A stretch of DNA of 64,000 nt from Clostridia bacterium (GTDB lineage: Bacteria > Bacillota > Clostridia > Oscillospirales > Acutalibacteraceae), in NCBI GenBank assembly GCA_017473435.1, contig JAFULG010000080.1, positions 1-64,000 of the forward strand, given 5' to 3'. Below, piece after piece: positions 645-48,150 of this stretch. Each line of letters starts with the position of its first letter. The stretch's first letter is position 1. Position numbers and translations under genes: made by a program. The notes below the pieces were generated by a model that made no database searches, was not told the DNA's origin, and saw only the letters and a program-made list of their open reading frames with translations.

Positions 645-1739
645 TTACACATTGAACAGGAAGTGTACAATGTCGCCGTCCTTCATCACATATTCCTTTC
701 CCTCACTCTTGACAAGACCCTTTTCCTTCGCCGCCGCAAGAGTTCCGCAAGCCATAAGATTATCAAAGGAAACAACCTCTGCACGGATAAATCCACGCTC
801 AAAGTCGGAGTGAATCTTACCTGCCGCCTGAGGTGCCTTTGTACCCTTTTTGATTGTCCAAGCTCTTACCTCAGGCTGACCTGCAGTAAGATAAGAAATA
901 AGACCGAGAAGATCGTAGCTTCTCTGAATAAGAAGGTCAAGACCGCTGTTTTCTACACCGAGATCAGCAAGGAACATTTCCTTGTCTTCATCGGAAAGAG
1001 AGGAAATTTCAGCCTCAAGTCCGGCACAGATGGGAAGCACCTGTGCGCCCTCTGCCTTTGCAATTTCCTTAACAGCCTGATAGTTTGCGTTTGTATCAAT
1101 GCCCGAAACAAAATCAGCCTCACTCATATTACAAGCATAAATAACAGGCTTTGAAGTAAGAAGAGCAACCTCTGAAAGCATTGCCTTCTCCTCGTCGGAG
1201 CATTCAACACTTCTTGCAGGCTTTTCATTTTCAAGAGCTTCCTTGACTCTCTTGAGGAATTCAACCTCTGCGGCAAGGCTCTTGTCGCCCTTCATAGCCT
1301 TGCTTGTTCTGTCAATTCTTCTGTCAATCATTTCCATATCGGAAAGGATAAGCTCAAGGTTGATGGTTTCGATGTCTCTCTTAGCGTCAACGCTTCCGTC
1401 AACGTGGATAATATCATCATCCTCAAAGCAACGTACAACGTGAATAATTGCGTCAACCTCACGGATGTGTGAAAGGAACTTGTTTCCGAGACCTTCGCCC
1501 TTTGATGCGCCTTTTACAAGACCTGCAATATCAACAAACTCAATTGTTGCAGGCGTAAACTTCACGGGATTATACATCTCACGAAGCTTATCAAGTCTGT
1601 AGTCGGGAACTGCAACAACGCCCACATTGGGCTCGATTGTGCAGAAAGCATAGTTTGCGGACTGTGCACCCGCATTTGTGATTGCATTAAAAAGTGTGCT
1701 CTTGCCTACATTGGGTAAGCCTACTATACCAAGTTTCAT
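645..1739 (-). CDS. ychF: Redox-regulated ATPase YchF (Obg-related P-loop protein)
   Basis: A 364-residue protein of normal length for the family. The P-loop GLPNVGKST lies at residues 7-15 and the C-terminal part fits the TGS domain of YchF/OLA1. The family prefers ATP to GTP, binds ribosomes and is linked to stress responses; this is family knowledge. The ATG has an AGAGG ribosome binding site and lies 12 bases after the metY stop, so the two genes are probably co-transcribed. Transcription ends at the 456-486 hairpin. Confident assignment. Confidence 0.95.
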
Positions 1740-1751
1740 ATTATACCTCTT

Positions 1752-3035
1752 TTACTTTGTAGCTTCAATAAGTGCCTGTTCAATATCAGCAATAATGTCC
1801 TCAGCATCCTCAATACCTACGGAAAGGCGGATAAGGTCACTCTTTACGCCGCAGTCATTAAGCTGCTCTTCCGTAAGCTGACGGTGAGTTGTTGAAGCAG
1901 GATGTAAGCAACAGGTTTTTGCATCAGCAACGTGAGTTACAATAGATGCAAGCTTAAGTGAATCCATAAACTTCGTAGCTGCCTCTCTGCCGCCCTTTAC
2001 GCCAAATGAAACAACGCCGCAGGTACCGTTGGGCATATATTTTTTTGCAATTTCGTACTGCGGATCGCTTTCAAGCCCGGGATAGGATACCCAGGATACA
2101 AGGTCGCTGCTTTCAAGATATTTTGCAACCTTAAGAGCGTTTTCCACGTGTCTCTCCATTCTGAGCGCAAGAGTCTCAAGACCGAGGTTGAGAAGGAATG
2201 CGTTTTGAGGACCGGGAATTGAGCCGAGGTCTCTCATAAGCTGTACAACGCACTTTGTTATATATGCACCCTTACCGAAGCGCTCGGTATATGTAATGCC
2301 GTGGTAGCTGTCATCGGGAGTTGTGAGATCGGGATACTTGTCACTCTTAGTCCAGTCAAAATTACCGCTGTCAACAATTACACCGCCAACCTGGGTAGCA
2401 TGACCGTCCATATACTTTGTTGTAGAATGAGTAATAATATCAACACCAAAATCAAATGCACGGCAGTTTATGGGTGTGGGGAAGGTGTTATCCACAATAA
2501 GGGGTACACCGTGAGCGTGAGCAGCATTTGCAAACTTTTCAATATCAAGCACCTGAAGTGAGGGGTTTGAAAGGGTCTCACCGAAAACAGCCTTGGTGTT
2601 TTCTTTGAAGGCTGCGTTGAGCTCTTCCTCTGAGCAGTCGGGAGTTACAAAGGTGAACTCAATGCCGAGCTTACGGAGAGTAACATTGAAAAGGTTGAAG
2701 GTACCACCGTAGATTGCGCTTGAAGCAACAACGTGGTCACCTGCATTACAGATGTTGAAAATTGCAAAGAAGTTTGCAGCCTGACCCGATGAGGTAAGCA
2801 CAGCGGCAACACCGCCCTCAAGGTCTGCGATTTTTGCAGCAACAGCATCGTTGGTGGGATTCTGAAGACGGGTGTAGAAATAGCCCGAAGCTTCAAGGTC
2901 AAAAAGCTTACCCATCTCAACGCTTGAATCGTATTTATAAGTTGTACTCTGGTAAATCGGGAGCTGTCTGGGCTCTCCGTTTTTAGGAGCGTAGCCCGAA
3001 TGTATGCACTTTGTAGCAAGTTTGTAACCGCTCAT
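1752..3035 (-). CDS. metY: O-acetylhomoserine sulfhydrylase, Cys/Met metabolism PLP enzyme
   Basis: The protein makes homocysteine from O-acetylhomoserine and sulfide in methionine synthesis and belongs to the PLP gamma-family. It has 427 residues from the chosen start. The PLP lysine is in HSTTKYMDG (Lys207). An upstream ATG at 3080 would lie only a few bases past the predicted transcription start (-10 at 3095-3100) and has a poor ribosome binding site. The ATG at 3035 has AAGAGG eight bases upstream, so I prefer it. The gene heads a two-gene operon with ychF. No SAM riboswitch or T-box fits in the short leader. Cystathionine gamma-synthase activity cannot be excluded by sequence alone. Confidence 0.9.
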   Translation of the reverse strand: MSGYKLATKCIHSGYAPKNGEPRQLPIYQSTTYKYDSSVEMGKLFDLEASGYFYTRLQNPTNDAVAAKIADLEGGVAAVLTSSGQAANFFAIFNICNAGDHVVASSAIYGGTFNLFNVTLRKLGIEFTFVTPDCSEEELNAAFKENTKAVFGETLSNPSLQVLDIEKFANAAHAHGVPLIVDNTFPTPINCRAFDFGVDIITHSTTKYMDGHATQVGGVIVDSGNFDWTKSDKYPDLTTPDDSYHGITYTERFGKGAYITKCVVQLMRDLGSIPGPQNAFLLNLGLETLALRMERHVENALKVAKYLESSDLVSWVSYPGLESDPQYEIAKKYMPNGTCGVVSFGVKGGREAATKFMDSLKLASIVTHVADAKTCCLHPASTTHRQLTEEQLNDCGVKSDLIRLSVGIEDAEDIIADIEQALIEATK

Positions 3036-3094
3036 AGTATATGCCTCTTTTCTGTATATTTTATCTGTGCGATTTAGCATCTTTATAGCTTTTA

Positions 3095-3123
3095 ATTATA
3101 TTACAATTACGGGTATAAGTCAA
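3095..3123 (-). promoter_or_regulatory. Sigma-A promoter of metY-ychF
   Basis: On the minus strand TTGACT (3118-3123), a 17-base spacer and TATAAT (3095-3100). It implies a 5' leader of about 50 nt. Confidence 0.75.
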
Positions 3124-3133
3124 GGGGAAATAA

Positions 3134-3222
3134 ATTCGCGTAGGGGATGCCCCGCGTGGCGTCCCAAGGTTAAAAACGGCGTATGAAAGGGCGACTACAA
3201 CGGGGTCGCCCCTACGCGATGT
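3134..3222. repeat. Dispersed GTAGGGGCG-type hairpin repeat, two hairpins
   Basis: Two inverted repeats: GGGATGCC...GGCGTCCC and GGGCGAC...GTCGCCC, each next to a GTAGGGG or CCCCTACG edge. A related pair lies at 58531-58606. The position just after the 3228 gene would let it work as a 3' hairpin. Confidence 0.6.
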
Positions 3223-3227
3223 TTTTT

Positions 3228-3800
3228 CTAACTCCTGATAACCGCATCTGACTTTCCCTCTACGTCAAAGGCTTCAAAATATTTTTCTTCAAGGGGTATC
3301 CATTTGTTAAGAAAATCATCGAGCCTGTCCTCACCGTTGCGCATACATATACGTTCTTTCTGTGTTTTCCTGTCAGTAGTCACAAAAACCGCCATATCGT
3401 AATAACATCTCAGCTCAGGGTGGCAGGAATAACTGCCCTCGATTATGTATATCCCTTTTAATGGCAGAGTCACTTTGTTACCGAAGCTCATTCTTTTACA
3501 GATGAAAGGACAGTATTCTGCTCTCTCGCCCTTTTTCAAAGGTAACAGCACCTCACTTAAAAGTCTTTCCCGGTCAAGGTTTCCACCGGGCTCGGCGTAC
3601 CTTTCGGGAGTCCGCTGAAAAGGCTGCAGGTAAAAGTCGTCGGTGTGCACAAGGCTGCAGTCAAGCATTTCCGAAAGCACCTTTGCAAGGGTAGTCTTAC
3701 CCGAAGCGCATCTGCCGTCAACGGCAACTATAAATATTTTCTTTTTTTCAGCGGCTGTTCTGATCCTTTCCGCAAGAGCAAAAACGGTGTTTTCCGTCAC
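3228..3800 (-). CDS. Uridine kinase-like P-loop NTPase
   Basis: About 190 residues. A Walker A motif (DGRCASGKTT) lies near residues 28-37, followed by HTDDFYLQ, the substrate-side motif seen in uridine kinase, phosphoribulokinase and pantothenate kinase relatives. An R-rich segment (ERICMRNGEDR) fits a lid. It probably phosphorylates a nucleoside or similar small molecule, but the substrate is not readable. I chose the GTG at 3800 because AAAGGAG sits eight bases upstream; a longer GTG start at 3809 would overlap that site. Single gene with its own promoter, divergent from serC. Confidence 0.75.
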   Translation of the reverse strand: MTENTVFALAERIRTAAEKKKIFIVAVDGRCASGKTTLAKVLSEMLDCSLVHTDDFYLQPFQRTPERYAEPGGNLDRERLLSEVLLPLKKGERAEYCPFICKRMSFGNKVTLPLKGIYIIEGSYSCHPELRCYYDMAVFVTTDRKTQKERICMRNGEDRLDDFLNKWIPLEEKYFEAFDVEGKSDAVIRS

Positions 3801-3823
3801 GGCAATCACTCCTTTCAGCTATA

Positions 3824-3852
3824 ATTAAACTATACTTCTTGAAATCTGTCAA
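3824..3852 (-). promoter_or_regulatory. Promoter of the uridine kinase-like gene
   Basis: Minus strand TTGACA (3847-3852), 17-base spacer, TTTAAT (3824-3829), about 25 bases before the start codon. Confidence 0.6.
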
Positions 3853-3933
3853 TACGAGCACTTTATTATTTTAAAATTATACAAAGGTTTCTGTCAGATA
3901 TTCACAAAAAACATCTCTCAACCGTTGTTTTCA

Positions 3934-3962
3934 TTGACATATTTCTTCATTAAACGTATAAT
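3934..3962 (+). promoter_or_regulatory. Sigma-A promoter of serC-serA
   Basis: Perfect consensus: TTGACA (3934-3939), 17-base spacer, TATAAT (3957-3962). The leader to the serC start is about 30 nt, too short for a riboswitch or T-box. Confidence 0.85.
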
Positions 3963-3997
3963 ATTAGGTATATTATTTTTCACGAGGTGAATAAAAA

Positions 3998-5086
3998 ATG
4001 AAACGAGTATTTAACTTTTCAGCAGGACCCTCAATGCTCCCCATTAAGGTCCTTAATAAAGCGGCAGAGGAAATGTGCTGTTACGGCGACAGTGGCATGT
4101 CCGTTATGGAGATGAGCCACCGTTCCCCCGAGTACGATGTAATCATCAAGCAGGCAGAATCGCTCCTTCGCGAAATCATGGAAATCCCCGATAACTATAA
4201 GGTTCTTTTCCTTCAGGGCGGTGCATCAACCCAGTTCGCTGCAGTACCCCTCAACCTTATGAACAAAAACAAAAAGGCAGACTACATCCTTTCAGGTCAG
4301 TTCTCAACAAAGGCCTACAAGGAAGCACAGAAGTACGGTGACGTTGTTGCCGCCGCTTCAGGCAAGGATGTAAACTTCTCCGTTATTCCCGAAACAACAA
4401 GAGCTTCCTTCCGCGAGGATGCAGACTATGTTCATATCTGCTTCAACAATACAATCTACGGCACAAAGTATAACTATATCCCCGACACGGGCGACATTCC
4501 CCTTGTTGCCGATATGTCCTCCTGCATCATTTCAGAGCCCATTGACGTAAGTAAGTTCGGTCTTATCTATGCAGGTGCGCAGAAAAACATGGCTCCTGCA
4601 GGTCTTACCCTTGTAATTGTCCGCGAGGACCTCATCGGTAACGCTGACGAAAAGACCCCTGCAATGCTTGACTACAAGCTTATGGCAGACAACGACTCAA
4701 TGTACAACACTCCCCCCTGCTACTGCATTTATGTTGCAAAGCTTGTTTACGAATGGATCAAGGAGCTCGGTGGACTTAAAGAAATGAAGAAGCTCAATGA
4801 AAAGAAGGCTGCTCTTCTTTACGATTACCTTGACGGCCAGGACTACTACATTGCTCCCGTCAAAAAGGAAAGCCGTTCAATGATGAACGTTACCTTTGTT
4901 ACAGGCGACGCTGACCTTGACAAGAAGTTTGCTGCTGAGGCTTCCGCCGCAGGACTCAAGAATCTTAAGGGTCACCGTAGTGTAGGCGGTATGAGAGCTT
5001 CAATCTACAATGCAATGCCCTATGAAGGTGTTGAGGCACTTGTAGCCTTTATGAAAAAATTCGCCGAGGAAAATCCCAAGGCATAA
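3998..5086 (+). CDS. serC: Phosphoserine aminotransferase
   Basis: Converts 3-phosphohydroxypyruvate and glutamate to phosphoserine in serine synthesis; the same fold serves PLP synthesis in some bacteria. It is 362 residues, the usual length. The N-terminal FNFSAGPSMLP signature and the PLP lysine in GAQKNMAP (Lys196) are present. The ribosome binding site is GAGGTG. Followed by serA after 33 bases in one operon. The phosphatase serB is not in the window. Confidence 0.97.
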   Translation: MKRVFNFSAGPSMLPIKVLNKAAEEMCCYGDSGMSVMEMSHRSPEYDVIIKQAESLLREIMEIPDNYKVLFLQGGASTQFAAVPLNLMNKNKKADYILSGQFSTKAYKEAQKYGDVVAAASGKDVNFSVIPETTRASFREDADYVHICFNNTIYGTKYNYIPDTGDIPLVADMSSCIISEPIDVSKFGLIYAGAQKNMAPAGLTLVIVREDLIGNADEKTPAMLDYKLMADNDSMYNTPPCYCIYVAKLVYEWIKELGGLKEMKKLNEKKAALLYDYLDGQDYYIAPVKKESRSMMNVTFVTGDADLDKKFAAEASAAGLKNLKGHRSVGGMRASIYNAMPYEGVEALVAFMKKFAEENPKA

Positions 5087-5119
5087 CTCAACAAGATTTT
5101 GGATAGAGGAGATACTAAT

Positions 5120-6280
5120 ATGAAAATTATCCAGACAATGAACAAAATTGCTCCCGTCGGTCTTAATGAGCTCGACAGGAATAAATATGCTATTTCCGAC
5201 ACAGCGGAAAATCCCGACGCCATTCTTGTGCGTTCAGCCAACCTCAATGCAATGGATTTCGGCTACAAACTTACAGCCATTGTGCGTTGCGGCGCAGGCG
5301 TAAACAACATTCCAGTTGAGCGCTGTGCAGAGCAGGGTATTGTTGTTTTCAACACACCCGGTGCAAACGCAAACGGCGTTAAGGAGCTCACAATTGCTTC
5401 CCTTCTTCTTGCTTCAAGAAACATCGTAGGTGGTATTGAATGGGCAAAGACCCTCGAAGAGGATATTGCAAAGCAGGTAGAAAAAGGTAAGAGTGCCTTC
5501 GGCGGCTGTGAAATTCTCGGCAAGACCCTTGGCGTTATCGGTCTTGGTGCAATCGGCGGTTTAGTTGCTAACTCTGCAAAGAGCCTCGGTATGAAGGTTA
5601 TCGGCTGCGATCCCTTTATCACAATCGAAGCTGCCTGGCATCTTTCAAGATCAATCAACAAGGCTTCAACCTATGATGAAATCTATGAAAAAGCTGACTA
5701 TATCACCCTTCATATTCCTGCAACGAAGGACACAAAGGGTATGATTAACAAAGAAAGCATTGCAAAAATGAAGGACGGCGTAAAGATTATCAACCTTTCC
5801 CGTGCCGACCTTGTAAACTTTGCCGATCTCAGAGAAGCTCTTGAAAGCGGTAAGGTAAGCGCTTATGTTACCGACTTTCCCAACGAGGAAATCAAGGGTT
5901 GCAAGAATGCTATTGCGATCCCCCATCTCGGTGCATCAACTGCCGAATCCGAGGACAACTGTGCAGTTATGGCAGCTCACGAGCTTGACGACTTCCTTCA
6001 GAACGGTAACATCACAAACAGCGTAAACTATCCTTCAATTTCAATGCCACGTACTGCTGAAGGTGGCAGACTTCTCATTCTCCACAAGAATGTGCCCAAC
6101 ATTTTAAGCTCGATTACTACTCACATTTCTGCAGAGGGCATCAACATTGATAACATGGCTAACCGTTCACGCGGCAATTATGCCTGTACAATTATTGACA
6201 CTCCCGAGCATGCGAGTGACAAGCTGATTGAGAAGATTTCGGAGATTGAGAACATCATCAGAATCATCAAGGTCGATTAA
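5120..6280 (+). CDS. serA: D-3-phosphoglycerate dehydrogenase with C-terminal ACT domain
   Basis: First step of serine synthesis: NAD-dependent oxidation of 3-phosphoglycerate. A 386-residue short-type enzyme: split catalytic domain, Rossmann motif GLGAIGG in the middle, catalytic Arg in LSRADLVN, His in HLGASTAESE, then an ACT domain (last ~75 residues) that in this family senses serine. I start at the ATG at 5120, with GAGGAG eight bases upstream, rather than the in-frame TTG at 5099. Second gene of the serC operon; its 3' end carries a family B repeat and then a terminator. Confidence 0.95.
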   Translation: MKIIQTMNKIAPVGLNELDRNKYAISDTAENPDAILVRSANLNAMDFGYKLTAIVRCGAGVNNIPVERCAEQGIVVFNTPGANANGVKELTIASLLLASRNIVGGIEWAKTLEEDIAKQVEKGKSAFGGCEILGKTLGVIGLGAIGGLVANSAKSLGMKVIGCDPFITIEAAWHLSRSINKASTYDEIYEKADYITLHIPATKDTKGMINKESIAKMKDGVKIINLSRADLVNFADLREALESGKVSAYVTDFPNEEIKGCKNAIAIPHLGASTAESEDNCAVMAAHELDDFLQNGNITNSVNYPSISMPRTAEGGRLLILHKNVPNILSSITTHISAEGINIDNMANRSRGNYACTIIDTPEHASDKLIEKISEIENIIRIIKVD

Positions 6281-6356
6281 ACAAGAAAGTAAAGTTTTGG
6301 TCAAGCTTTTACAAAAGCTTGCGGGAGTCAAGAGGGCAGAGCCCTCTTGCTCTTAA
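6281..6356 (+). repeat. Stop-adjacent repeat, family B
   Basis: Starts right after the serA stop: GTAAAGTTTTGGTC, the palindrome AAGCTTTTACAAAAGCTT, GCGGGAGT, then the hairpin CAAGAGGGC/GCCCTCTTG. Nearly identical to 62669-62737. No T-run follows the second hairpin; the true terminator is at 6384. Confidence 0.75.
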
Positions 6357-6383
6357 CAATTATCATCTAAACACAACAAACAA

Positions 6384-6419
6384 GCCAACACGGAAAAAAT
6401 CTGTGTTGGCTTTAGTTTT
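6384..6419 (+). terminator. Rho-independent terminator of serC-serA
   Basis: Stem GCCAACAC/GTGTTGGC extended by imperfect pairs, A-rich loop, then TTTAGTTTT. On the other strand it could also end ung transcription. Confidence 0.8.
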
Positions 6420-6437
6420 ATATGATTTTATTGTTTT

Positions 6438-6498
6438 ATGACCTCGCCGGTCGGGCATTCTTTTCTTGTAAGAAAAGAATCAAAAGAACTTTACTTGT
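6438..6498 (-). repeat. Stop-adjacent repeat, family A (ung copy)
   Basis: Minus strand, right after the ung stop: GTAAAGTTCTTTTG, hairpin ATTCTTTTCT-TACA-AGAAAAGAAT, then a GC-rich CCGACCGGCGAGGTC box. Followed by the shared 6384-6419 hairpin. Confidence 0.75.
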
Positions 6499-7158
6499 TT
6501 ACCACTCAATCTCTGCAAGTCCGTTTTGCCTTAATATTTCATTCGCCTTTGAAAAGTGCCTGCACCCAAAAAAGCCCCTCGACGCCGAAAGCGGACTCGG
6601 GTGCACCGTCATCAGCTTGTAATGCCTCGGATTAGTGATAATCTCCGCTTTTTTCTGTGCGTGAGCACCCCAAAGAAGAAAAACTATCGGCTCTTCCTTT
6701 CTGTTAAGCTCACTTATCACCCTGTCGGTAAAAATCTCCCAGCCCATTTTCGCGTGGCTCGTCGGCTGACCTTCTCTCACGGTAAGCACGTTATTCAAGA
6801 GAAGCACTCCCTGCTTCGCCCACTCGGTAAGCTCACCGTGAGCAGGTATCGGCTTTCCGATATCGGCATTAAGCTCCTTGAAAATATTCCTGAGTGAGGG
6901 TGGAAACATTACTCCCTGCTTTACCGAAAAGCACAGTCCGTGTGCCTGCCCTGCCCCGTGATAAGGGTCCTGACCGATAATAACTACCTTTGTGTTTTCA
7001 AAGGAGGTATACTTAAGGGCGTTAAAAATGTCGTTCATATGGGGGTATATTCTTTGAGTGGAATACTCCGCCTTTAAAAACTTACGCAAATTCTGATAGT
7101 AGGGCTTTGACCACTCGTCTGCTAAAATTTCGTCCCAGTCGTTACCGATGTGTACCAT
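6499..7158 (-). CDS. ung: Uracil-DNA glycosylase (family 1)
   Basis: Removes uracil from DNA in base excision repair. 219 residues, normal length. The water-activating Asp is in GQDPYHG (residues 62-68), and the His loop is HPSPLSAS in the C-terminal part. Strong AAAGGAGGT before the ATG. Monocistronic, convergent with serA; a family A repeat sits between stop and terminator. Confidence 0.97.
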   Translation of the reverse strand: MVHIGNDWDEILADEWSKPYYQNLRKFLKAEYSTQRIYPHMNDIFNALKYTSFENTKVVIIGQDPYHGAGQAHGLCFSVKQGVMFPPSLRNIFKELNADIGKPIPAHGELTEWAKQGVLLLNNVLTVREGQPTSHAKMGWEIFTDRVISELNRKEEPIVFLLWGAHAQKKAEIITNPRHYKLMTVHPSPLSASRGFFGCRHFSKANEILRQNGLAEIEW

Positions 7159-7187
7159 TGTTTTGTTTGACCTCCTTTGTTTTTTAT

Positions 7188-7215
7188 ATTATAGCATGAA
7201 ATTTTTTAAATGCAA
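7188..7215 (-). promoter_or_regulatory. Promoter of ung
   Basis: Minus strand TTGCAT (7210-7215), 16-base spacer, TATAAT (7188-7193), about 25 bases upstream of the ribosome binding site. Confidence 0.6.
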
Positions 7216-7225
7216 AGTAAATACA

Positions 7226-7254
7226 GAATAAAATACCTCAACACACAAATACTA
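7226..7254 (+). promoter_or_regulatory. SigmaG-like promoter in front of the spoVT remnant
   Basis: GAATA (7226-7230), a 17-base spacer and AATACTA (7248-7254) match the known Bacillus sigmaG pattern (gHATR, CATWMTA) except for the first base of the -10. The same elements at the same spacing precede intact spoVT at 8007-8035. Confidence 0.5.
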
Positions 7255-7289
7255 ACAACACAATTTGTACTTTAAGGAGAAATGTATAT

Positions 7290-7364
7290 ATGAAAGCAAC
7301 AGGTATAGTACGCCGAATAGAGGCTCGTGTTATAATAACACAAAAATGCGAAAAATCCTTATAA
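7290..7364 (+). pseudogene. Truncated duplicate of the spoVT 5' end
   Basis: The first ten codons are identical to spoVT (MKATGIVRRI), after which homology stops and a 24-codon frame ends at 7364. The homology also covers the ribosome binding site (AAGGAG) and the upstream region back to about 7210, so promoter, leader and start are all duplicated. A hairpin with a T-run at 7439-7465 could end a short RNA from this copy. The coding part is better conserved than the upstream part. I read it as a decayed or partial duplication; a leader-like function is possible but unproven. Confidence 0.7.
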
Positions 7365-7438
7365 ATACTGGGATTTCAAGCGATTTTAGAGTATAAGTTT
7401 TTGACAAAAAACAGCACATTTTGACCTATACATAGCAA

Positions 7439-7466
7439 CAGCGGAGTGAAGCTCACTCCGCTTTTT
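7439..7466 (+). terminator. Terminator hairpin after the spoVT remnant
   Basis: AGCGGAGTGA, 3-nt spacer, TCACTCCGCT, then TTTTT on the plus strand. On the minus strand, downstream of the 7470 gene, the hairpin lacks a T-run. Confidence 0.65.
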
Positions 7467-7469
7467 GCA

Positions 7470-7949
7470 TTAAAAATTATCTAAAATATATTGCTTGGTA
7501 GATGGGGTTGTTGGTGGTGTATCAATCATGAAAAATTCTTCGGCAGGAACTGGGTCTTTTTCATAATCCACAAGTTTTGCTCTACGCTTTTCAAGTGGAT
7601 TCCGTTTTTCCCATTCTATAAACGCAAGCAAACGCTCCTTTATTAAAGATTTATTTGTCCATTCCTCGCACCATTGTTCAAATTTTTTCATTATTTCTTC
7701 AGGTGTTGTTTGCTCGATTTGTGTCATATAGTGACCGCGAGCATACATATCAGACGAAATTCCATTAATACGAATACTTGGTCTTATATAATATGTTTCT
7801 TTTGAAAAACAACTGCCTTGCACATAAAAATAAATTGTAAAGTCACCGATGTCTTTTGTCCAAGTTTTATTCTTTTTCTTAAACCCTTTTGCTTTCAAAT
7901 AAGGCTTTACATATTCAATTAATTCTTCTTCGGGTAAAAAGTGTTTCAC
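7470..7949 (-). CDS. Hypothetical protein, possibly DUF4304-like
   Basis: 159 residues, charged and soluble, no membrane segment. The N-terminal pattern VKPYLKAKGFKKKNKTW, followed by a beta-rich stretch (FTIYFYVQGS), resembles DUF4304-type proteins of unknown function; this is from memory and unverified. The gene is more AT-rich than its neighbours, and its codon use (many AAA, ATT, TTT) differs from the flanking housekeeping genes. It lies between the spoVT remnant and intact spoVT, in the opposite orientation, which suggests it arrived with, or caused, that duplication. No partner gene is seen. Confidence 0.6.
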   Translation of the reverse strand: MKHFLPEEELIEYVKPYLKAKGFKKKNKTWTKDIGDFTIYFYVQGSCFSKETYYIRPSIRINGISSDMYARGHYMTQIEQTTPEEIMKKFEQWCEEWTNKSLIKERLLAFIEWEKRNPLEKRRAKLVDYEKDPVPAEEFFMIDTPPTTPSTKQYILDNF

Positions 7950-8006
7950 AAAATCACCGCCTTTAATTTATTATATCACATTTCATTTCAAAAGTAAAAT
8001 CACGCA

Positions 8007-8035
8007 GTATAAATCTCCTCAAAATACAGATACTA
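8007..8035 (+). promoter_or_regulatory. SigmaG-like promoter of spoVT
   Basis: GTATA (8007-8011), 17-base spacer, GATACTA (8029-8035). This fits sigmaG forespore promoters apart from the first -10 base. In Bacillus spoVT is known to be sigmaG-dependent, which supports the reading. Confidence 0.55.
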
Positions 8036-8069
8036 ACATCACAATTTGCAATTCAAGGAGATATGATAT

Positions 8070-8612
8070 ATGAAAGCAACAGGTATAGTACGCCGAATAG
8101 ACGACCTCGGCAGAGTAGTCATCCCAAAAGAAATCCGCCGTACCCTCCGCATCCGCGAAGGCGACCCGCTGGAAATTTTCACCCAGAGTGAGGGTGAGGT
8201 TATTTTCAAAAAGTACTCCCCCATTAGTGAGCTTGGGCCCTACACAAAGCAGTATGTTGACGTACTCTCACGTACAAGCGGAATGACTGTGGCGATATGC
8301 GACCGTGATAAGGTTGTTGCCGTTGCAGGCATGCCTAAAAAGGATGCTGTGGGCAAGCGTATTTCACCGATGCTCGAGAGCTATATGGAAAGGCGGTCAC
8401 CCTTTGTACTTGGCACGGACAAGGACGAGCTTGTGATAAGTGAGGAGATTCCCGCGGGTAAAATTGCGGTGATGAATCCGATTATCGGCGGCGGCGATGT
8501 GATGGGTGCGGTTGCGCTTATTTCCGACAGTAAGAACACTGCTCCGTCACAGACGGATATAAAGCTTACGCAGGTGGCGGCAGGCTTTCTGAGCAAGCAG
8601 ATGGAAGAATAA
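8070..8612 (+). CDS. spoVT: Stage V sporulation transcriptional regulator SpoVT
   Basis: 180 residues, as in Bacillus. The N-terminal AbrB-type swapped-hairpin DNA-binding domain (MKATGIVRRIDDLGRVVIPK) is followed by a C-terminal GAF-like domain. In Bacillus it tunes the sigmaG regulon in the forespore; its presence implies endospore formation. The ribosome binding site is AAGGAG. The promoter looks sigmaG-type. The gene is convergent with apgM, and a family A repeat follows its stop. Confidence 0.95.
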   Translation: MKATGIVRRIDDLGRVVIPKEIRRTLRIREGDPLEIFTQSEGEVIFKKYSPISELGPYTKQYVDVLSRTSGMTVAICDRDKVVAVAGMPKKDAVGKRISPMLESYMERRSPFVLGTDKDELVISEEIPAGKIAVMNPIIGGGDVMGAVALISDSKNTAPSQTDIKLTQVAAGFLSKQMEE

Positions 8613-10235: not shown

Positions 10236-10311
10236 GATCCATTAGCTCAGCCGGCAGAGCACTTGACTTTTAATCAAGGTGTCCGGAGTTCGAATCTCCG
10301 ATGGATCACCA
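10236..10311 (+). tRNA. tRNA-Lys (anticodon TTT)
   Basis: Full cloverleaf of 76 bases: acceptor stem GATCCAT/ATGGATC, D arm GCTC/GAGC, anticodon loop CTTTTAA in stem CTTGA/TCAAG, T arm CGGAG-TTCGAAT-CTCCG. The CCA end is encoded. It has its own promoter and terminator. Confidence 0.97.
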
Positions 10312-10345: not shown

Positions 10346-10378
10346 ATCCAGGGCTTATCCTTAATTTAACCCGGCAAA

Positions 10379-10408
10379 CAAAAAACAGACCGCTTACACG
10401 GTCTGTTT
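10379..10408 (-). terminator. Terminator of mini-protein unit V
   Basis: Minus strand ACAGACCG/CGGTCTGT with a 6-nt loop, then TTTTTTG. It closes the mini-protein cluster. Confidence 0.85.
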
Positions 10409-10423
10409 CTTTTTTAGCTTTAA

Positions 10424-10555
10424 TTATTCAATACCGAAGATGAACTTAACATCAGCTACGATTGTGTCGAACTTTTCGCTGCCACCGATAAGTGCGATGA
10501 AGTCCTTAAAAAGATCGAAGAGTGATTCGATGAGTGCCTTTGTGTTCTGATCCAT
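10424..10555 (-). CDS. Unit V acidic amphipathic mini-protein (43 aa)
   Basis: Unrecognised. A 43-residue peptide starting MDQNTKALIESLFDLFKDF, with charged and hydrophobic residues alternating as in an amphipathic helix. Net charge is about -4 and there is no Cys. There is no signal peptide; a GG pair at residues 24-25 exists, but its flanks do not convince as a processing site. GGAGGT lies eight bases before the ATG. Own promoter (10589-10617) and terminator (10379-10408), so monocistronic. The frequent codons (AAG, CTT, GGT) resemble those of the window's housekeeping genes, which supports real translation. Confidence 0.8.
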   Translation of the reverse strand: MDQNTKALIESLFDLFKDFIALIGGSEKFDTIVADVKFIFGIE

Positions 10556-10588
10556 TGTTACTACCTCCATTAAATATTTTATGGTCAT

Positions 10589-10617
10589 ATTGTAACTCCA
10601 AAAATTAAAATTGTCAA
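10589..10617 (-). promoter_or_regulatory. Promoter of mini-protein unit V
   Basis: Minus strand TTGACA (10612-10617), exactly 17 bases, TACAAT (10589-10594). Predicted 5' leader about 26 nt. Confidence 0.8.
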
Positions 10618-10652
10618 TAATTTTTTAACAAAATTAAATTTTTTTAGTAAAG

Positions 10653-10681
10653 AAAAAATCCCTCTCCGTAAGGAAAGGGAT
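10653..10681 (-). terminator. Terminator of mini-protein unit IV
   Basis: Minus strand ATCCCTTTCC/GGAGAGGGAT (one G-U type mismatch) with a TTAC loop, then TTTTTTC. Confidence 0.8.
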
Positions 10682-10692
10682 ATAATTATTCA

Positions 10693-10863
10693 TTAGTCTT
10701 CTACAGGCTTCTGAATTGCATCCATCCAACCCTGTACTGATTCAGCCATTTCACCGCTAACCTGAATACCTTCAAGACCGAAAGTTGCAAGCATTACATT
10801 GAACAATGCGATAAAGTAAGCAACGATGTGCTTGGGAGCTACATTTTTGAACATATCTTTCAT
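10693..10863 (-). CDS. Unit IV mini-protein (56 aa), most diverged member
   Basis: Unrecognised. 56 residues, no Cys. Residues 11-30 (KHIVAYFIALFNVMLATFGL) are nearly uncharged and long enough for a membrane segment; the C-terminal half is acidic and polar with one Trp. This makes it the one member that could be truly membrane-spanning, for example a protective or anchoring partner; that is inference. AAAGGAGGAA lies upstream of the ATG. Own promoter (10918-10946) and terminator (10653-10681). Confidence 0.8.
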   Translation of the reverse strand: MKDMFKNVAPKHIVAYFIALFNVMLATFGLEGIQVSGEMAESVQGWMDAIQKPVED

Positions 10864-10917
10864 GATTCTTCCTCCTTTAAATTACTATATAAAATATAAT
10901 TATTAACTGCTGTTAAC

Positions 10918-10946
10918 ATTTTAACCTAAAAGAAGCAAAAAGTCAA
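10918..10946 (-). promoter_or_regulatory. Promoter of mini-protein unit IV
   Basis: Minus strand TTGACT (10941-10946), 17 bases, TAAAAT (10918-10923). Predicted leader about 47 nt. Confidence 0.75.
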
Positions 10947-10975
10947 CCCTTTTTGCTATTTTAATAAATATATAT

Positions 10976-10999
10976 AAAAAACCTACCCTTTCGGGTAGG
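10976..10999 (-). terminator. Terminator of mini-protein unit III
   Basis: Minus strand CCTACCC-GAAA-GGGTAGG followed by TTTTTT. Preceded by the conserved palindrome at 11004-11021. Confidence 0.9.
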
Positions 11000-11003
11000 C
11001 TTT

Positions 11004-11021
11004 ATACGATTCGAATCATAT
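11004..11021 (-). repeat. Palindrome between stop and terminator, unit III
   Basis: Minus strand ATATGATTCGAATCGTAT, ten bases after the unit IIIb stop. The same motif with TAAA in place of CGAA at the centre follows IIb (11480-11497), and a degenerate form follows Ib (11981-11999). Confidence 0.7.
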
Positions 11022-11030
11022 AAAATTAAA

Positions 11031-11171
11031 TTAGAACTTAAAGCCAGCTGTTTCAAACCAGTTAAGGATATCTTCAACCTGCTGGTCAACATTGATACCT
11101 GCGTTTTCAGGATCAAAAACCTTGATAACTGCGTTAACTGCTGTAAAGAAAGCTTTGATGAGTTTTTCCAT
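11031..11171 (-). CDS. Unit IIIb amphipathic mini-protein (46 aa)
   Basis: Unrecognised. 46 residues beginning MEKLIKAFFTAVNAVIKVF, a strongly amphipathic stretch, then a polar middle (DPENAGINVDQQ) and a second helix-like segment with Trp (VEDILNWFETAGFKF). Net charge about -3, no Cys, no leader. GGAGGA lies eight bases before the ATG. Second gene of a bicistron, 45 bases after IIIa, followed by palindrome and terminator. Confidence 0.82.
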   Translation of the reverse strand: MEKLIKAFFTAVNAVIKVFDPENAGINVDQQVEDILNWFETAGFKF

Positions 11172-11216
11172 TGTTGGTTCCTCCTTATATTATTTTAAAG
11201 TTTTTTCACCAAGGGG

Positions 11217-11315
11217 TTATGCATCAACTTTAGCAAGAAGCTTCTTGATGAAATCGATAATAGCTAAAACTGCTGCGTCGATTTCTGCCCATCTTGAAAT
11301 AATCCAATCGTACAT
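11217..11315 (-). CDS. Unit IIIa amphipathic mini-protein (32 aa)
   Basis: Unrecognised and the shortest member, 32 residues. The core LAIIDFIKKLLAK matches the I-I-D-hydrophobic pattern of Ia (AIIDAIVAFLK) and IIa (MIIDFVIAIVK). Two Trp residues lie near the N-terminus. Net charge about -1, no Cys. A near-perfect AAAGGAGGT lies eight bases upstream of the ATG. First gene of a bicistron with IIIb, under the 11359-11387 promoter. Confidence 0.82.
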   Translation of the reverse strand: MYDWIISRWAEIDAAVLAIIDFIKKLLAKVDA

Positions 11316-11358
11316 TGTACATTACCTCCTTTGTTATTTCCTATTATAGGATATTACC

Positions 11359-11387
11359 ATTTTATATTAAAAAATTGAATCTGTCAA
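11359..11387 (-). promoter_or_regulatory. Promoter of mini-protein unit III
   Basis: Minus strand TTGACA (11382-11387), 17 bases, TAAAAT (11359-11364). The leader contains the small inverted repeat CCTATAATAGG, also present in degenerate form in the unit I and II leaders. An inverted repeat (GGTCAAAAT/ATTCTGACC) lies further upstream at 11415-11439. Confidence 0.8.
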
Positions 11388-11450
11388 TAGATAGTTCATA
11401 ATTAGGTAAACTTTGGTCAAAATGTTCAAAATTCTGACCTGAGAGCAAGA

Positions 11451-11475
11451 TAAAAACCCACCCGTGGTGGGTGGG
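11451..11475 (-). terminator. Terminator of mini-protein unit II
   Basis: Minus strand CCCACCC-ACCAC-GGGTGGG followed by TTTTT. Confidence 0.9.
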
Positions 11476-11479
11476 CTTT

Positions 11480-11497
11480 ATACGATTTAAATCATAT
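11480..11497 (-). repeat. Palindrome between stop and terminator, unit II
   Basis: Minus strand ATATGATTTAAATCGTAT, 11 bases after the IIb stop, directly before the terminator stem. Same position and outer sequence as the unit III copy. Confidence 0.7.
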
Positions 11498-11508
11498 AAA
11501 TAGGTTAA

Positions 11509-11649
11509 TTATGCTACGAACTCGTAACCTTCTTCCTTAGCAACGAAGCCAAGGATCTTACCAACTACTGCTTCAATAAGATCGATGAGAGCGTCTACGT
11601 CGAACTTACCGTCAGCGAAAACTTTTCCAAGCATTTCCTTAATATTCAT
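11509..11649 (-). CDS. Unit IIb amphipathic mini-protein (46 aa)
   Basis: Unrecognised. 46 residues, net charge about -4, no Cys. Short helix-like N-terminus (MNIKEMLGKVF), a polar turn (ADGKFDVD), then a longer hydrophobic helix ALIDLIEAVVGKILGFVAK. The end of that helix, KILGFVAKEEG, parallels KAIFGFVEGE of Ib, so Ib and IIb look like homologues in the second position of their bicistrons. The two-segment plan with a central turn recalls staphylococcal PSM-beta peptides in size and charge; identity with them is not claimed. AAAGGAGA ribosome binding site. Confidence 0.83.
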   Translation of the reverse strand: MNIKEMLGKVFADGKFDVDALIDLIEAVVGKILGFVAKEEGYEFVA

Positions 11650-11689
11650 TGTAATATTCTCCTTTCTAAGATTTTAATTAAATGTTAAA

Positions 11690-11827
11690 TTAGCCCTGTG
11701 CTTCAGTGTTAGCATCTTCCTTCTCGCCAAGAACTGCGCCGATTTCGGGGAATTCACCCTTAACAATAGCAATAACGAAATCGATAATCATTGAGAAAAG
11801 GTCTTCAAACTTCTTAAGAAAATCCAT
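11690..11827 (-). CDS. Unit IIa amphipathic mini-protein (45 aa)
   Basis: Unrecognised. 45 residues: amphipathic helix FLKKFEDLFSMIIDFVIAIV, then GEFPEIGAVLG and an acidic tail. The segment EFPEIG parallels EFPAIG of Ia, so Ia and IIa are clear homologues. Net charge about -6, no Cys, no signal peptide. AAGGAGGA before the ATG. First gene of a bicistron; IIb starts 40 bases after its stop. Own promoter at 11872-11900. Confidence 0.85.
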   Translation of the reverse strand: MDFLKKFEDLFSMIIDFVIAIVKGEFPEIGAVLGEKEDANTEAQG

Positions 11828-11871
11828 TGTATAATCCTCCTTCTTATATTTCCCATTACTAGGATAGCTAT

Positions 11872-11900
11872 ATTTTATAACATATTATTTCTTTTGTCAA
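11872..11900 (-). promoter_or_regulatory. Promoter of mini-protein unit II
   Basis: Minus strand TTGACA (11895-11900), 17 bases, TAAAAT (11872-11877); leader about 37 nt. A palindrome ACAAATTTGT (11911-11920) lies just upstream of the -35. Confidence 0.8.
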
Positions 11901-11950
11901 TAGAAAATTCACAAATTTGTTAATAGTATTTTAATATCGTTATAAATTAA

Positions 11951-11980
11951 CAAAAACCTGCCCTGAAAAAAGGCAGGTTT
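11951..11980 (-). terminator. Terminator of mini-protein unit I
   Basis: Minus strand AAACCTGCC/GGCAGGTTT with an 8-9-nt T-rich loop, then TTTTTG. The degenerate palindrome copy lies before it at 11981-11999. Confidence 0.85.
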
Positions 11981-12012
11981 TATGCTATTTAAATTACCTG
12001 AATATCAGTTAA

Positions 12013-12129
12013 TTATACTTCGCCTTCAACAAAACCGAAGATAGCCTTAAGGATAATAGCGAAAGCGTCAAGAAGGCCCTGAAGCTTATTGTCGGCTGCT
12101 TCGAAAGCTGCTTTAATTTCTGCAAACAT
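12013..12129 (-). CDS. Unit Ib amphipathic mini-protein (38 aa)
   Basis: Unrecognised. 38 residues, net charge about -3, no Cys. An Ala-rich N-terminal helix (FAEIKAAFEAADNK) leads into the hydrophobic LLDAFAIILKAIFGFVEGE. The last part parallels IIb. AAGGAGT lies eight bases before the ATG, with ACA just before the start codon as in most members. Starts 40 bases after the Ia stop. Confidence 0.83.
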   Translation of the reverse strand: MFAEIKAAFEAADNKLQGLLDAFAIILKAIFGFVEGEV

Positions 12130-12169
12130 TGTAATTTACTCCTTTCGTGAAGTTTCTACTTAAATCAAA

Positions 12170-12301
12170 TTATACAGTTTCTTCAGGAGCTTCTTCTGCA
12201 TCGCCGAATAATCCGCCGATTGCAGGAAATTCCTTTGTAAGAATTGACTTAAGGAATGCAACGATAGCGTCGATGATTGCTTTGAAGTTGAGGTTTTCCA
12301 T
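12170..12301 (-). CDS. Unit Ia amphipathic mini-protein (43 aa)
   Basis: Unrecognised. 43 residues: helix FKAIIDAIVAFLKSIL, then KEFPAIGGLFG and an acidic tail rich in Glu. Net charge about -5, no Cys, no signal peptide. GG at residues 29-30 is aligned with GA in IIa; cleavage there would leave only a 13-residue acidic tail, so I do not read it as a bacteriocin leader. AAGGAGG ribosome binding site. First gene of the cluster in the direction of transcription. Confidence 0.85.
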   Translation of the reverse strand: MENLNFKAIIDAIVAFLKSILTKEFPAIGGLFGDAEEAPEETV

Positions 12302-12347
12302 TATATTGTCCTCCTTTTAAGATTTCCCTTTTTATAGGGTTAATAAC

Positions 12348-12376
12348 ATTTTACACTATTTTTTTCACGCTGTCAA
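12348..12376 (-). promoter_or_regulatory. Promoter of mini-protein unit I
   Basis: Minus strand TTGACA (12371-12376), 17 bases, TAAAAT (12348-12353). An inverted repeat TTTATTCA/TGAATAAA (12380-12401) lies just upstream. Confidence 0.8.
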
Positions 12377-12412
12377 TATTTTATTCATATTTTTGAATAA
12401 AGATGGGGTTAA

Positions 12413-18816: not shown

Positions 18817-18924
18817 AATATTGCCGTCGGCAATATTTCAAATCAGCGAAGCTGATATTTCATACACAAAGTGTATTTCATATGACCGCAGGGTCATATT
18901 TCATTAAAAAGCCACAGGCTTTTT
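18817..18924 (-). repeat. Array of five short hairpins spaced by TTTCA
   Basis: Stems on the plus strand: ATATTGCC/GGCAATAT (18818), ATCAGC/GCTGAT (18842), ATACAC/GTGTAT (18862), ATATGACC/GGTCATAT (18880) and AAAAAGCC/GGCTTTTT (18906). All loops are three or four bases and all hairpins are separated by TTTCA-type spacers. The stems share no sequence, only the layout. The array fills the purH-glyA gap of the purine transcript. Confidence 0.8.
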
Positions 18925-34815: not shown

Positions 34816-37800
34816 TTATTTAATCATAGGTGCAATATAAATTTTAAAAACATTGAGTAATATTTTGAGAATCTTAAAGAGAATATCGAGCACTGAACTG
34901 ATTGTTGCGTCACCGTTGTCAACCTCAGGGGTCTCAGGTTCAACATAATCCTTATTTACGTCACCCTGGCTCTTATCCTTCATAATGGCAATGGAATCAA
35001 CCTTTTCGCTGCCATTTTCAGTAATCTCATAGGCATCGAAATAAAGAATACCGTCAACGATTCTTACTGCGGAATACATCGGATAATCGACAGAGAGAAT
35101 CTTGTCGCCTCTGGGGAAGTATTTATCCGTAAGCGTAACATCATTCTGAATATAGGTCTTGACACCTGCCGTACCTGAAATCACATAGGTTATGCCCTCA
35201 GGCTGAAGCTGTGCTCTGTAAATATCGTCTGCATAGTTAAGGTAAACCTTTTCATAAGGTGTAAGAGCGTTATTCACAAGCGAGCCGGTTCTCATATAAA
35301 CGTGGTCGTGTCCCTGGAACACCATATCAACGCCGAGAGTCGGCATAAGAGCGCCGAGCTGTGCACGCATTGCACAAACATCATCGTCGGCATAATGTGA
35401 TCCCTGAGAGTAAAGAGCCTTGTGGAGCATTACAAACTTCCACTGTGCATCACTCTTAAGCATATCATCCGTAAGCCACTCAACCTGGTCGGCTGAAAGG
35501 GATTCGTCCGCTGCAAGATTGTTTGTGTTAAGTACAGCTATATGCACATTGTTGTAATCAAAGGAATAGTACACGCCGCTTGATGTATCCTGCTGAGGAA
35601 CGTTGGGAAGCACAAAGTAGTTGACCGTTGCGTTTGTGCCCATGCCCTCGTGATTACCCGAAGCCGGCATCATATAGGTATCCATAAGATAGTCAGCACC
35701 TGTATTGAACATCCATGCCCACTGCTTCTGATTGTCGCCGTGGTCTACAAGATCACCGCTGTTAATGATAAAGTCGGTATCAGGATATTTTTCAAATGCA
35801 TTCTCAAGCACATTTGCCCAGGCGCGGTTGTACTGTCTTTCATTCTGTGACTGAGGATCCGTAACGTGAAGGAAGGTTACATCCTTACTGCCGTCAGCAA
35901 CTCTGAGCTTACCTGTTTCGCTCCACCAGTCTCTTCCGGCATCGCCCACACGGTAGTAATAGGTTGCACCCTCTTCAAGGCCGGTAAGGGTTACGGTGTG
36001 ACGGTTCATCGGGAATTCATAGGTAATAAAGCCGATAAAGCCAAGGTCAATACCGGGGAAGGAACGTGTAACGGTTTCGGTTACAACCTCAATGCCCTCT
36101 GTTGCCTCGCCCGTAAACTCAGGCTCACTGTCTGCCTTATAAATCTCAATATCACCTTCTACCGTTGACTTTGAGAACCAGCTGATATATGCACTCTCAT
36201 TCTTCTCATCGCCAAGGGTTACGCTGATCATTGTAGGCAGACGGAAATTCTCCTGATTAACAGGAACCTCTACGGGAAGTGAGTTATAAGTAACGTCGTA
36301 GTCACCCTTGAAGCCGGGATTTACATCGGTGTTGAAGTCAGAAAGAATATAGGCAACAAAAATACCGAGGGACTCAAACTGACTTTCGGTAAGATATTTT
36401 TCCATAAGAAGCTTATCAAGTACATCGTAAAGGTCAGTCCATGGAAGAATTTCAAGCTCAAATACGGTATTGACAAGATTCATATAAGTAAAGTCGCCGC
36501 GCAAAACATAATTGAGAAGATAGTTTACACCTTCGCCCAGACGCTTTGAAATTTCATCGTCAGCAAGAAGCTTATCTACGCGGATTTCAAGCTTTGCAAG
36601 GATGCTGTCCTCTATAAGATCGTGAAGAAGCACATCAACGATGAGATCAAAGAAGCCCTTGAAGGCAGTTGCATCCTCATCGAAATATCTGATGGTATCC
36701 TGCATAAATTCATCGTCACTGATATCCTCGTTACCGCCCGTCCAGTAAACAAGAGTTGAAAGCACGGCATCACCGAGAGTGCCGGGCTTATCGGGGTTGC
36801 CGAAGCCGAAGGTATCGATGAACTTTGTGCAGGGAACAGTTGAAACCTGATAATTCACAAGCTTATCAATAATATCCTCAAGCAATTCATAAAGGGCATC
36901 ACTGTCAGCTATATAAAGATCATAAACCTGACCGAGGAGGTCATCTATGAACCACATAAGATTCTCAACGCTGAAAATATTGAAGCCGCCAAGCTTAATA
37001 CCGTCACCGAGAACAGGTGAAAGAAGATCGCTGAGAAGAGCCTCGAGGTCGATACCCATTGTTTTAAGGAATTCGCCGATACTGCCGCTTGCAGCGATAT
37101 CCTCAATATAGCCTCCCAGATAGCTCTTCACAATACCCATAAGGAATTCACCGCAGTCGGGTGCACCGTTTTCACTTGTAAGTCCGCCGAAGCAAAGGGA
37201 AAACGCCTTATATTTAAAGCTGTTTTTGTCATAAGTAACGCCGTCGAAGGTGTATTCCTTTGCATCGTCAAAGTCAACGGAATCAACCTTAATTTCGCTT
37301 TCACCGCTCATATATGAGGTGAGGGTGATTTCACGGTATGTGTTGGGATATCCCGTTATTGAAGAGGTTTCAATATCATAAAGCACTTCACCGTCATCAT
37401 TGATAACACAAGCAGTATCATCGGTATGAAGGTGTCCTGTGAAGGCGTAGTGTATGCCCCAGGAGGCAAACTGCTCTGCCTTCTGCATATAGTCATTGAG
37501 CGGGAACGCAAAGGTAATGGAAGGCTCAACCTCCATATGTGCCGAAAGACTGTGGTGCACCATAATCATAGGAACCTTACCCTCAGCAACCGCCTCGTCA
37601 GCCATTTCCTTGATCCATACCATAAGCTCATCGCTTATCATACCCTCAGTCTTGTATGTCTTTGCCTCATCAAAGCTGTAAATACAGCTGTCAACCACAA
37701 TGAGTCTGTAATCACCGTCAAAATCCGCCGCATAGGAAAGCTGACCGGGTACATTGTCACCCTTCTTTGCATATTCGCTTACGGCAAGATCGTAACCGAG

Positions 37801-48009: not shown

Positions 48010-48150
48010 TCAGATGCCGAAATCAAGATTAGGTGCATCCTCGGGAGGCCATGTATCGCCTTCGCCAAATACATACATAAGCCACTGAATAAGAGCTTCC
48101 ATAAAATCTATGAAGCTTTCCCAGACTTCTTTAGCAATATCCCAGTTCAT
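48010..48150 (-). CDS. Orphan acidic amphipathic mini-protein (46 aa), relative of the 10.4-12.3 kb cluster
   Basis: Unrecognised. 46 residues: amphipathic, Trp-rich helix EVWESFIDFMEALIQWLMYV, then GEGDTWPPEDAP and a short acidic tail. Net charge about -9, no Cys, no signal peptide. The core SFIDFMEALI follows the I-I-D-hydrophobic pattern of Ia, IIa and IIIa, and the helix-plus-acidic-tail plan is the same. AAGGAGT lies six bases before the ATG. Its promoter has the same -35, spacer and -10 as the cluster promoters. It shares a bidirectional terminator with the GDPD-like gene. Confidence 0.8.
   Translation of the reverse strand: MNWDIAKEVWESFIDFMEALIQWLMYVFGEGDTWPPEDAPNLDFGI

Follow-up and report, generated by a model that had tools for sequence, protein, structure and literature searches.

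The stretch analysed here (the window) is 64,000 nucleotides (nt) of a Clostridia bacterium genome of the family Acutalibacteraceae (assembly GCA_017473435.1, contig JAFULG010000080.1, positions 1 to 64,000), and the subject is a cluster of eight very short genes, P0001 to P0008, on its minus strand between tRNA-Lys (10236–10311) and the end of purL (12517). Suitably positioned promoter-like and terminator-like sites, a shuffle test and relatives in the genus make a real family of acidic amphipathic mini-protein genes, whose products carry no recognisable leader, well supported. As to their role, we tentatively propose by analogy that the cluster encodes leaderless, surface-active peptides resembling the phenol-soluble modulins (PSMs) of Staphylococcus.

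The first-pass annotation, made from the letters alone, had described eight tandem minus-strand frames with strong ribosome-binding sites and acidic, Cys-free products, lying between a tRNA and the purine operon. All eight are present at that location; according to the list of open reading frames (ORFs) and their translations, they encode 32–56 amino acids (aa) with net charges of −1 to −6, and none contains Cys (0/8). The trinucleotide ACA, said to be usual ahead of the ATG, stands immediately 5′ of it in six of the eight frames, the exceptions being P0001 and P0007. Hydrophobic moments range from 0.42 to 0.61, and the absence of a recognisable leader was judged by reading. For P0008, the start supported by a Shine–Dalgarno (SD) sequence, at 10555, was taken instead of the longer start at 10588.

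Strong-SD ATG frames of 30–60 aa between 10312 and 12516 number nine on the minus strand and none on the plus strand. Eight of the nine are acidic and amphipathic, and the ninth, of 30 aa, overlaps P0005 out of frame. When the same interval was dinucleotide-shuffled 1,000 times, a mean of 0.04 strong-SD frames arose (maximum 2), and the maximum for acidic amphipathic ones was 0, compared to the eight observed. Rfam searches at gathering scores found the tRNA alone in or beside the cluster region. In 326,469 bases sampled from the same genome as 20 stretches taken regardless of content (L113–L132, six from one contig), seven short frames met the listing rule and two passed the acidic-amphipathic filter, one being a clear family member (L118) and the other a 64-aa frame with Cys. 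Loci L093 and L094, both chosen through profile matches, contribute three more members from this genome. The window itself holds a ninth member (Table 1), which has a promoter-like site matching at 11 of 12 positions and, as read from the sequence, a downstream stem and T-run.

The cluster reads as five transcription units, P0001+P0002, P0003+P0004, P0005+P0006, P0007 and P0008. Five minus-strand sigma-70-like promoter sites with 17-nt spacing and 10–11 of 12 matching positions stand just 5′ of P0001, P0003, P0005, P0007 and P0008 (hexamers starting at 12376, 11900, 11387, 10946 and 10617, respectively). In the region as a whole, 15 promoter-like sites were counted against 9.4 in shuffles (standard deviation 3.2) and eight terminator-like sites against 1.3 (standard deviation 1.2); the support for the promoters thus comes from their placing ahead of the units and not from their total count. 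The same arrangement was scored in 28 loci, namely the window and loci picked because family members lie in them. Of the 65 short frames there that follow a strong SD and lie outside long ORFs, 56 were neutral to acidic and amphipathic. A promoter-like site scoring 11/12 or better stood within 160 nt of 41 of these 56, compared to 43 of 269 long ORFs and 3 of 224 random 160-mers. The genes of the cluster are probably strongly transcribed. A 5′-leader hairpin was considered as a conserved riboregulator and rejected: among the 59 of 68 leaders long enough for folding, 45 fell below −2 kcal/mol compared to 12 of 37 controls, yet z-scores barely differed (p = 0.046), and six leaders folded one by one showed no clear gain over shuffles.

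Table 1. Mini-protein genes and associated sites in the window. The p values refer to the outside-match test described in the text unless marked as paralogy.
Feature	Position	Strand	Support
P0001, 43 aa, charge −5, first of pair, SD AGGAGG	12170..12301	−	p 0.007
P0002, 38 aa, charge −3, second of pair	12013..12129	−	not significant, p 0.41
P0003, 45 aa, charge −6, first of pair, paralogue of P0001	11690..11827	−	paralogy p 0.0005; outside match p 0.10
P0004, 46 aa, charge −4, second of pair; relative after purL in G005	11509..11649	−	p 0.003
P0005, 32 aa, charge −1, related to NWA/ETY subfamilies	11217..11315	−	p 0.003
P0006, 46 aa, charge −3	11031..11171	−	p 0.043
P0007, 56 aa, charge −3; relative beside tRNA-Lys in G002	10693..10863	−	p 0.003
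P0008, 43 aa, charge −4; relatives in G002 and G005	10424..10555	−	p 0.037
Ninth family member, 46 aa, charge −9, NWD subfamily	48010..48150	−	p 0.003
Promoter-like site, unit 1, TTGACA-17-TAAAAT, 11/12	12348..12376	−	promoter scan
Promoter-like site, unit 2, TTGACA-17-TAAAAT, 11/12	11872..11900	−	promoter scan
Promoter-like site, unit 3, TTGACA-17-TAAAAT, 11/12	11359..11387	−	promoter scan
Promoter-like site, unit 4, TTGACT-17-TAAAAT, 10/12	10918..10946	−	promoter scan
Promoter-like site, unit 5, TTGACA-17-TACAAT, 11/12	10589..10617	−	promoter scan
Terminator-like stem, unit 1	11953..11981	−	terminator scan
Terminator-like stem, unit 2	11456..11472	−	terminator scan
Terminator-like stem, unit 3	10978..11003	−	terminator scan
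Terminator-like stem, unit 4	10658..10681	−	terminator scan
Terminator-like stem after unit 5	10383..10408	plus-strand form in scan	T-rich minus-strand tail read from sequence
Short leader hairpin, unit 1	12326..12339	−	sequence and folding, no better than shuffles
Short leader hairpin, unit 2	11851..11864	−	sequence and folding, no better than shuffles
Short leader hairpin, unit 3	11339..11351	−	sequence and folding, no better than shuffles

Two other genomes have relatives of the cluster at the corresponding places: in G002, four such genes adjoin the same tRNA-Lys and apgM, and in G005, three follow purL (purL and apgM lie on separate contigs in both). Each window peptide was compared with 70 peptides from other genomes, using as null a residue shuffle that keeps the hydrophobic pattern. 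Likeness beyond that pattern was obtained for six of the eight at p ≤ 0.05 (uncorrected) and for three after correction for eight tests (Table 1). Six of the eight best matches, the non-significant one of P0002 among them, fall on the seven peptides that make up the G002 and G005 clusters. Within the window, P0001 and P0003 are paralogous. The window peptides diverge fast relative to the PurL end: they are about 20–50% identical to aligned relatives in G002, G005 and G018, compared to 93% identity of the PurL end in G002 and G005.

Selection on the protein sequence was assessed from nonsynonymous and synonymous differences (pN and pS). All 22 pairs containing a window peptide had pN below pS, which was rejected as proof of selection, as codon-shuffled partners give the same ratio because the alignment is protein-guided. 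For ETY-type peptides, a subfamily from which 14 sequences were chosen by motif (91 pairs), the median pN/pS was 0.36 compared to 0.54 in codon-shuffled partners, with one shuffle per pair and no formal test, which suggests protein-sequence constraint in that subfamily. The first-pass annotation had held that a lack of protein-level selection would speak against these frames; constraint is suggested for ETY, and the measure is uninformative for the window peptides.

The same annotation had pointed to a profile built from the set, and such a profile, made from the eight, matched 10 other genomes out of 58 at E ≤ 0.01. In five of these ten the match is a short SD-preceded gene of the ETY subfamily, 60–74% identical between species. 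Widening the profile to 15 peptides drawn from 8 genomes (A3) gave matches in 33 of the 34 genomes of the genus at E ≤ 0.1. Open frames of at most 75 aa were matched by A3 at E ≤ 1e-4 in 20 of the 34, eight of which had supplied profile rows and 12 had not; the other 14 gave weaker matches, matches within long ORFs or, in G027, none. Subfamilies were named by motif (ETY, NWA, YWE, DAL and NWD, with DYM in two species). NWD stands next to a gene read as cytidylate-kinase-like both in the window and in G018. A filter admitting charges of at most +1, at most one Cys and a hydrophobic moment above 0.40 gave 84 frames with a mean charge of −4.3, 80 of them Cys-free, figures that are shaped by the filter itself; after exclusion of four frames not resembling family members, 80 were aligned (A6). 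A row of twelve short frames, one with a charge of +1, lies beside mfd in G018. This row of consecutive amphipathic frames (L176, G018:C13:9000-25892, 1688–4801), upstream of mfd on the terminase side of a capsid island, exceeds the window cluster.

Free peptides of the ETY, NWA and YWE subfamilies look restricted to the genus. A profile of 28 such peptides, P0005 included (A4), matched one of 394 genomes of the order at E ≤ 1e-4, which was the source genome itself (0/393 others). Among 300 genomes of the family at E ≤ 0.001, it matched nine, five of this genus (one solely within a long ORF) and four of other genera. The four matches in other genera all lie within ORFs of 269–613 aa, three as C-terminal tails and the fourth in L219. 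Window-type peptides were sought outside the genus with the first profile only, which matched 0 of 25 genomes of other genera. At least seven loci in ruminant-gut metagenome-assembled genomes labelled 'Clostridia bacterium RGIG' match the ETY alignment. A viral origin was considered and rejected, as tblastn with the ETY alignment gave no relative among 234 pattern matches in viral_contigs. Separately, L056:2790-2969 and L060:12158-12337 encode a conserved 59-aa protein that is strongly acidic, rich in Cys and Tyr and preceded by a promoter-like site (11/12), and that is unlike the mini-protein family.

Searches of the 80 aligned members against family databases gave no convincing match, the best being E = 0.0086 in Pfam, 0.00033 in NCBIfam and 0.0014 in PHROGs. 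The NCBIfam match would make P0007 a NarX-like sensor; it scores 19.5 bits against a cut-off of 578 and was rejected as a composition match. The A4 profile had two chance-level matches in the PDB (E = 0.52 and 0.64). The open-access literature searched does not describe the family, and small-protein catalogues may hold unnamed clusters of such peptides. Within Pfam, NCBIfam, PHROGs and that literature, the earlier label 'undescribed' holds. The most telling near-miss is the AMEP412 elicitor model (NF040841), which matched four of the 80 members weakly (best E = 0.0009, 19.5 bits compared to a cut-off of 45) and over its C-terminal two-fifths alone. According to the part of the source available, AMEP412 of Bacillus has 76 aa and a pI of 10.05 and was purified from culture supernatant (PMC6661057). 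The window peptides, by contrast, are shorter (32–56 aa) and acidic (−1 to −6), and the score is far below the cut-off.

Two further kinds of small protein were compared. SpoVM is a membrane-shape-sensing mini-protein that is single copy, conserved and tied to sporulation. The window peptides share with it one small, in their case putative, amphipathic helix, whereas they are multi-copy and fast-diverging, and no such family appeared among the Pfam and NCBIfam matches. Type I toxin peptides are hydrophobic, transmembrane and accompanied by an antisense RNA. The window peptides show a charged amphipathic pattern by charge and hydrophobic moment.

In the PSM-like reading, the peptides would be made in quantity, would leave the cell without a signal peptide, through an unlinked transporter or by lysis, and would fold into helices at hydrophobic interfaces. 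They would then serve as surface-active or co-assembling agents at the cell surface or on the substrate, one possible role being to keep exported enzymes there. This reading is drawn because peptides that are small, leaderless, multiple, encoded behind promoter-like sites and quick to diverge suit a role needing amphipathic helix in bulk better than one that depends on an exact sequence, and because there is a precedent in LspU of S. aureus, an amphipathic PSM-like small protein described in the accessible part of its report as co-assembling with exported lipases and retaining them at the cell surface (PMC12607899). Parallel to that precedent, several exported enzymes of these bacteria end in an amphipathic C-terminal tail. 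Like the staphylococcal PSMs, the peptides are short, leaderless by reading, amphipathic and encoded by several genes. They differ in being mostly acidic, in having mostly their own promoters and in belonging to another bacterial class, and no Pmt-type exporter was identified. The family is not known to be linked to agr.

Several observations weigh against this reading. By sequence, the peptides are not PSMs: no PSM model is among the Pfam matches of the 80 members, and PSM-type matches in NCBIfam were confined to one member with an alpha-PSM model (E = 0.028) and one with a delta-lysin model (E = 0.45). The likeness to PSM-beta put forward by the first-pass annotation therefore stands for size, charge and leaderlessness and fails for sequence match to PSM models (best E = 0.028). 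Acidic peptides bind anionic bacterial membranes poorly. No ORF beside the cluster was read as an exporter among window ORFs of at least 150 aa, as had been claimed, and the nearest transporter-like ORF by reading is at 38542. The place of the cluster is rarely conserved. Such genes occur downstream of purL in 1 of 25 other genomes evaluated (two of the 25 with less than 250 bases downstream; four further loci left out) and upstream of apgM in 1 of 15, some with little upstream DNA; the close species G015 has none after purL or upstream of apgM. The 22 window-containing pairs gave a median pN/pS of 0.61 compared to 0.60 after codon shuffling. If the peptides are translated and exported, they would be surface-active mini-proteins peculiar to one lineage of ruminant-gut bacteria, eight of their genes packed into 2 kb, that the family models and literature searched do not capture. 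The PSM way of life, in which leaderless amphipathic peptides serve as extracellular matter, would then extend beyond staphylococci in acidic form, and it would become possible to test the general question of how anaerobes of the gut such as these retain exported enzymes on the cell surface.

A different role, possible although doubtful, is that of intracellular regulators: the peptides would stay inside, bind the inner leaflet or membrane-protein partners and each tune the product of a neighbouring gene. Their leaderlessness fits, as do the neighbours that some subfamilies keep across species. ETY directly adjoins a gene for a MATE protein (by Pfam) in five genomes (G000, G002, G005, G006 and G025), DYM adjoins a diacylglycerol kinase gene in 2/2 cases, and DAL follows a 580-aa protein read as a Na/Pi cotransporter in 3/3. 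Regulators tied to neighbours are harder to reconcile with most members having their own promoter, with eight different members standing together in the window beside genes without a membrane role, with the fast divergence, and with ETY occurring in other contexts too, adjoining a secreted lysin-like gene in five other genomes.

Known leaderless bacteriocins such as aureocin A70 and enterocin L50 have 30–50 aa and adjacent peptide genes, form two-peptide pairs, are cationic and have exporter and immunity genes alongside. The window peptides are likewise leaderless, similar in length and encoded side by side; three two-gene units have unlike first and second peptides, and similar pairs exist in G005, G002 and G018 (the second gene of the G018 pair also has its own promoter-like site). 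Members are, moreover, multi-copy, fast-diverging and genus-restricted, as antagonistic peptides might be. Even so, we consider it unlikely that they are leaderless bacteriocins or other antagonistic peptides, some acting as pairs: they are acidic, their promoters look constitutive, no such family appeared in Pfam or NCBIfam matches and no exporter or immunity neighbour was recognised in the window. Nor did ORF clustering of the 28 loci give a recurring one, although some loci do share an ABC-type ORF located at the distal end of the capsid island.

That island is a head-only phage element, observed in the source genome beside mfd (L094, G000:C6:209000-227000, 1806–8313) with terminase, portal, capsid and small genes. 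PHROGs recognised its terminases, portal, capsid and one virion protein; one further protein matched only a family of uncharacterised function and three matched nothing, so that labels such as connector or protease would be conjectural. Its gene content, the sole basis of comparison, is similar to that of the FpGTA I operon reported, in the part of the source available, in Faecalibacterium (PMC12946183), and the island is likely a domesticated gene-transfer-agent-like element of that kind. NWA/YWE-type peptides lie upstream of its terminase genes in 16 of the 27 genomes covered among the 34 of the genus (15 by SD scan, G017 by profile only), the next long gene being mfd in 10 of these. That the peptides are accessories of the island, serving lysis, protection or packaging, would fit this placement but is very improbable. 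A long distance separates the window cluster from the island, and the peptides are served by promoters of their own. In 11 of the 27 genomes no peptide was found upstream of terminase, whereas a single capsid-gene match is present in 33 of the 34 genomes of the genus (a contig end truncates one of them). The capsid gene also occurs in other genera, with 21 of 197 genomes of the order matched, the source genome included; the three-subfamily profile finds no free peptide outside the genus. It is hardly credible that the eight are no genes at all, being chance frames or a non-coding RNA feature: pN/pS of the window pairs is no lower than in the codon-shuffled control and P0002 and P0003 lack a significant outside match, but not one acidic amphipathic SD frame arose in 1,000 shuffles, promoters and terminators are placed at the units, relatives stand in the same places in two species and ETY pN/pS lies below its control.

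The peptide profiles also match C-terminal tails of exported proteins. Under a rule for F-rich tails, applied to all loci, 19 of 256 ORFs with a signal-peptide call and 2 of 753 without one carried such a tail; many of these loci were chosen via a profile–tail match, near-duplicates were kept and the signal-peptide call was a crude rule of our own. In loci not chosen via tails, nine signal-peptide ORFs and one other carry an F-rich tail (numerators only). A looser rule applied to the G000 sample, the window, L093 and L094 gave no clear enrichment (5/64 signal-peptide ORFs compared to 8/223 others). The last 30 residues of 33 tailed ORFs have a mean charge of +2.0, with 24 positive, seven zero and two negative. 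Among the tail-bearers, Pfam matches exceeded the cut-off for a calcineurin-like phosphatase (window 34816–38304), a phosphodiesterase and a peptidase-S9-like hydrolase, and fell short of it for two proteins resembling alpha/beta-hydrolases; seven tails compared with NCBIfam had no match at E ≤ 0.01. In window 34816–38304, L194, L203, L216–L218 and others, the tail is an F-rich, mostly basic amphipathic C-terminal helix, often following an acidic or Pro-rich linker, and it may be a surface anchor of an undescribed kind. As free peptides and tails have similar helix patterns but opposite charge, there arises the speculative idea, to which we give little credence, that the free acidic helices are mobile partners in a new surface-display system: they would pair with the basic tails by charge and hydrophobic face and would so hold or assemble exported enzymes at the surface, in place of sortase-type anchoring.

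Two minor observations concern other features. Exported-type enzymes in L005, L008, L009, L012 and L192 (esterase-like by reading) and L010 (GH16-like by reading) have at the N terminus a long helix, hydrophobic or amphipathic (MFDKIVAFFMAIINFFLGLFGL-like), that does not resemble a classical cleavable signal peptide. On the minus strand of the window, a Gut-1 RNA (Rfam RF01706) lies at 18830–18906 between two genes of the purine run, scoring 52.2 bits compared to a gathering score of 50.

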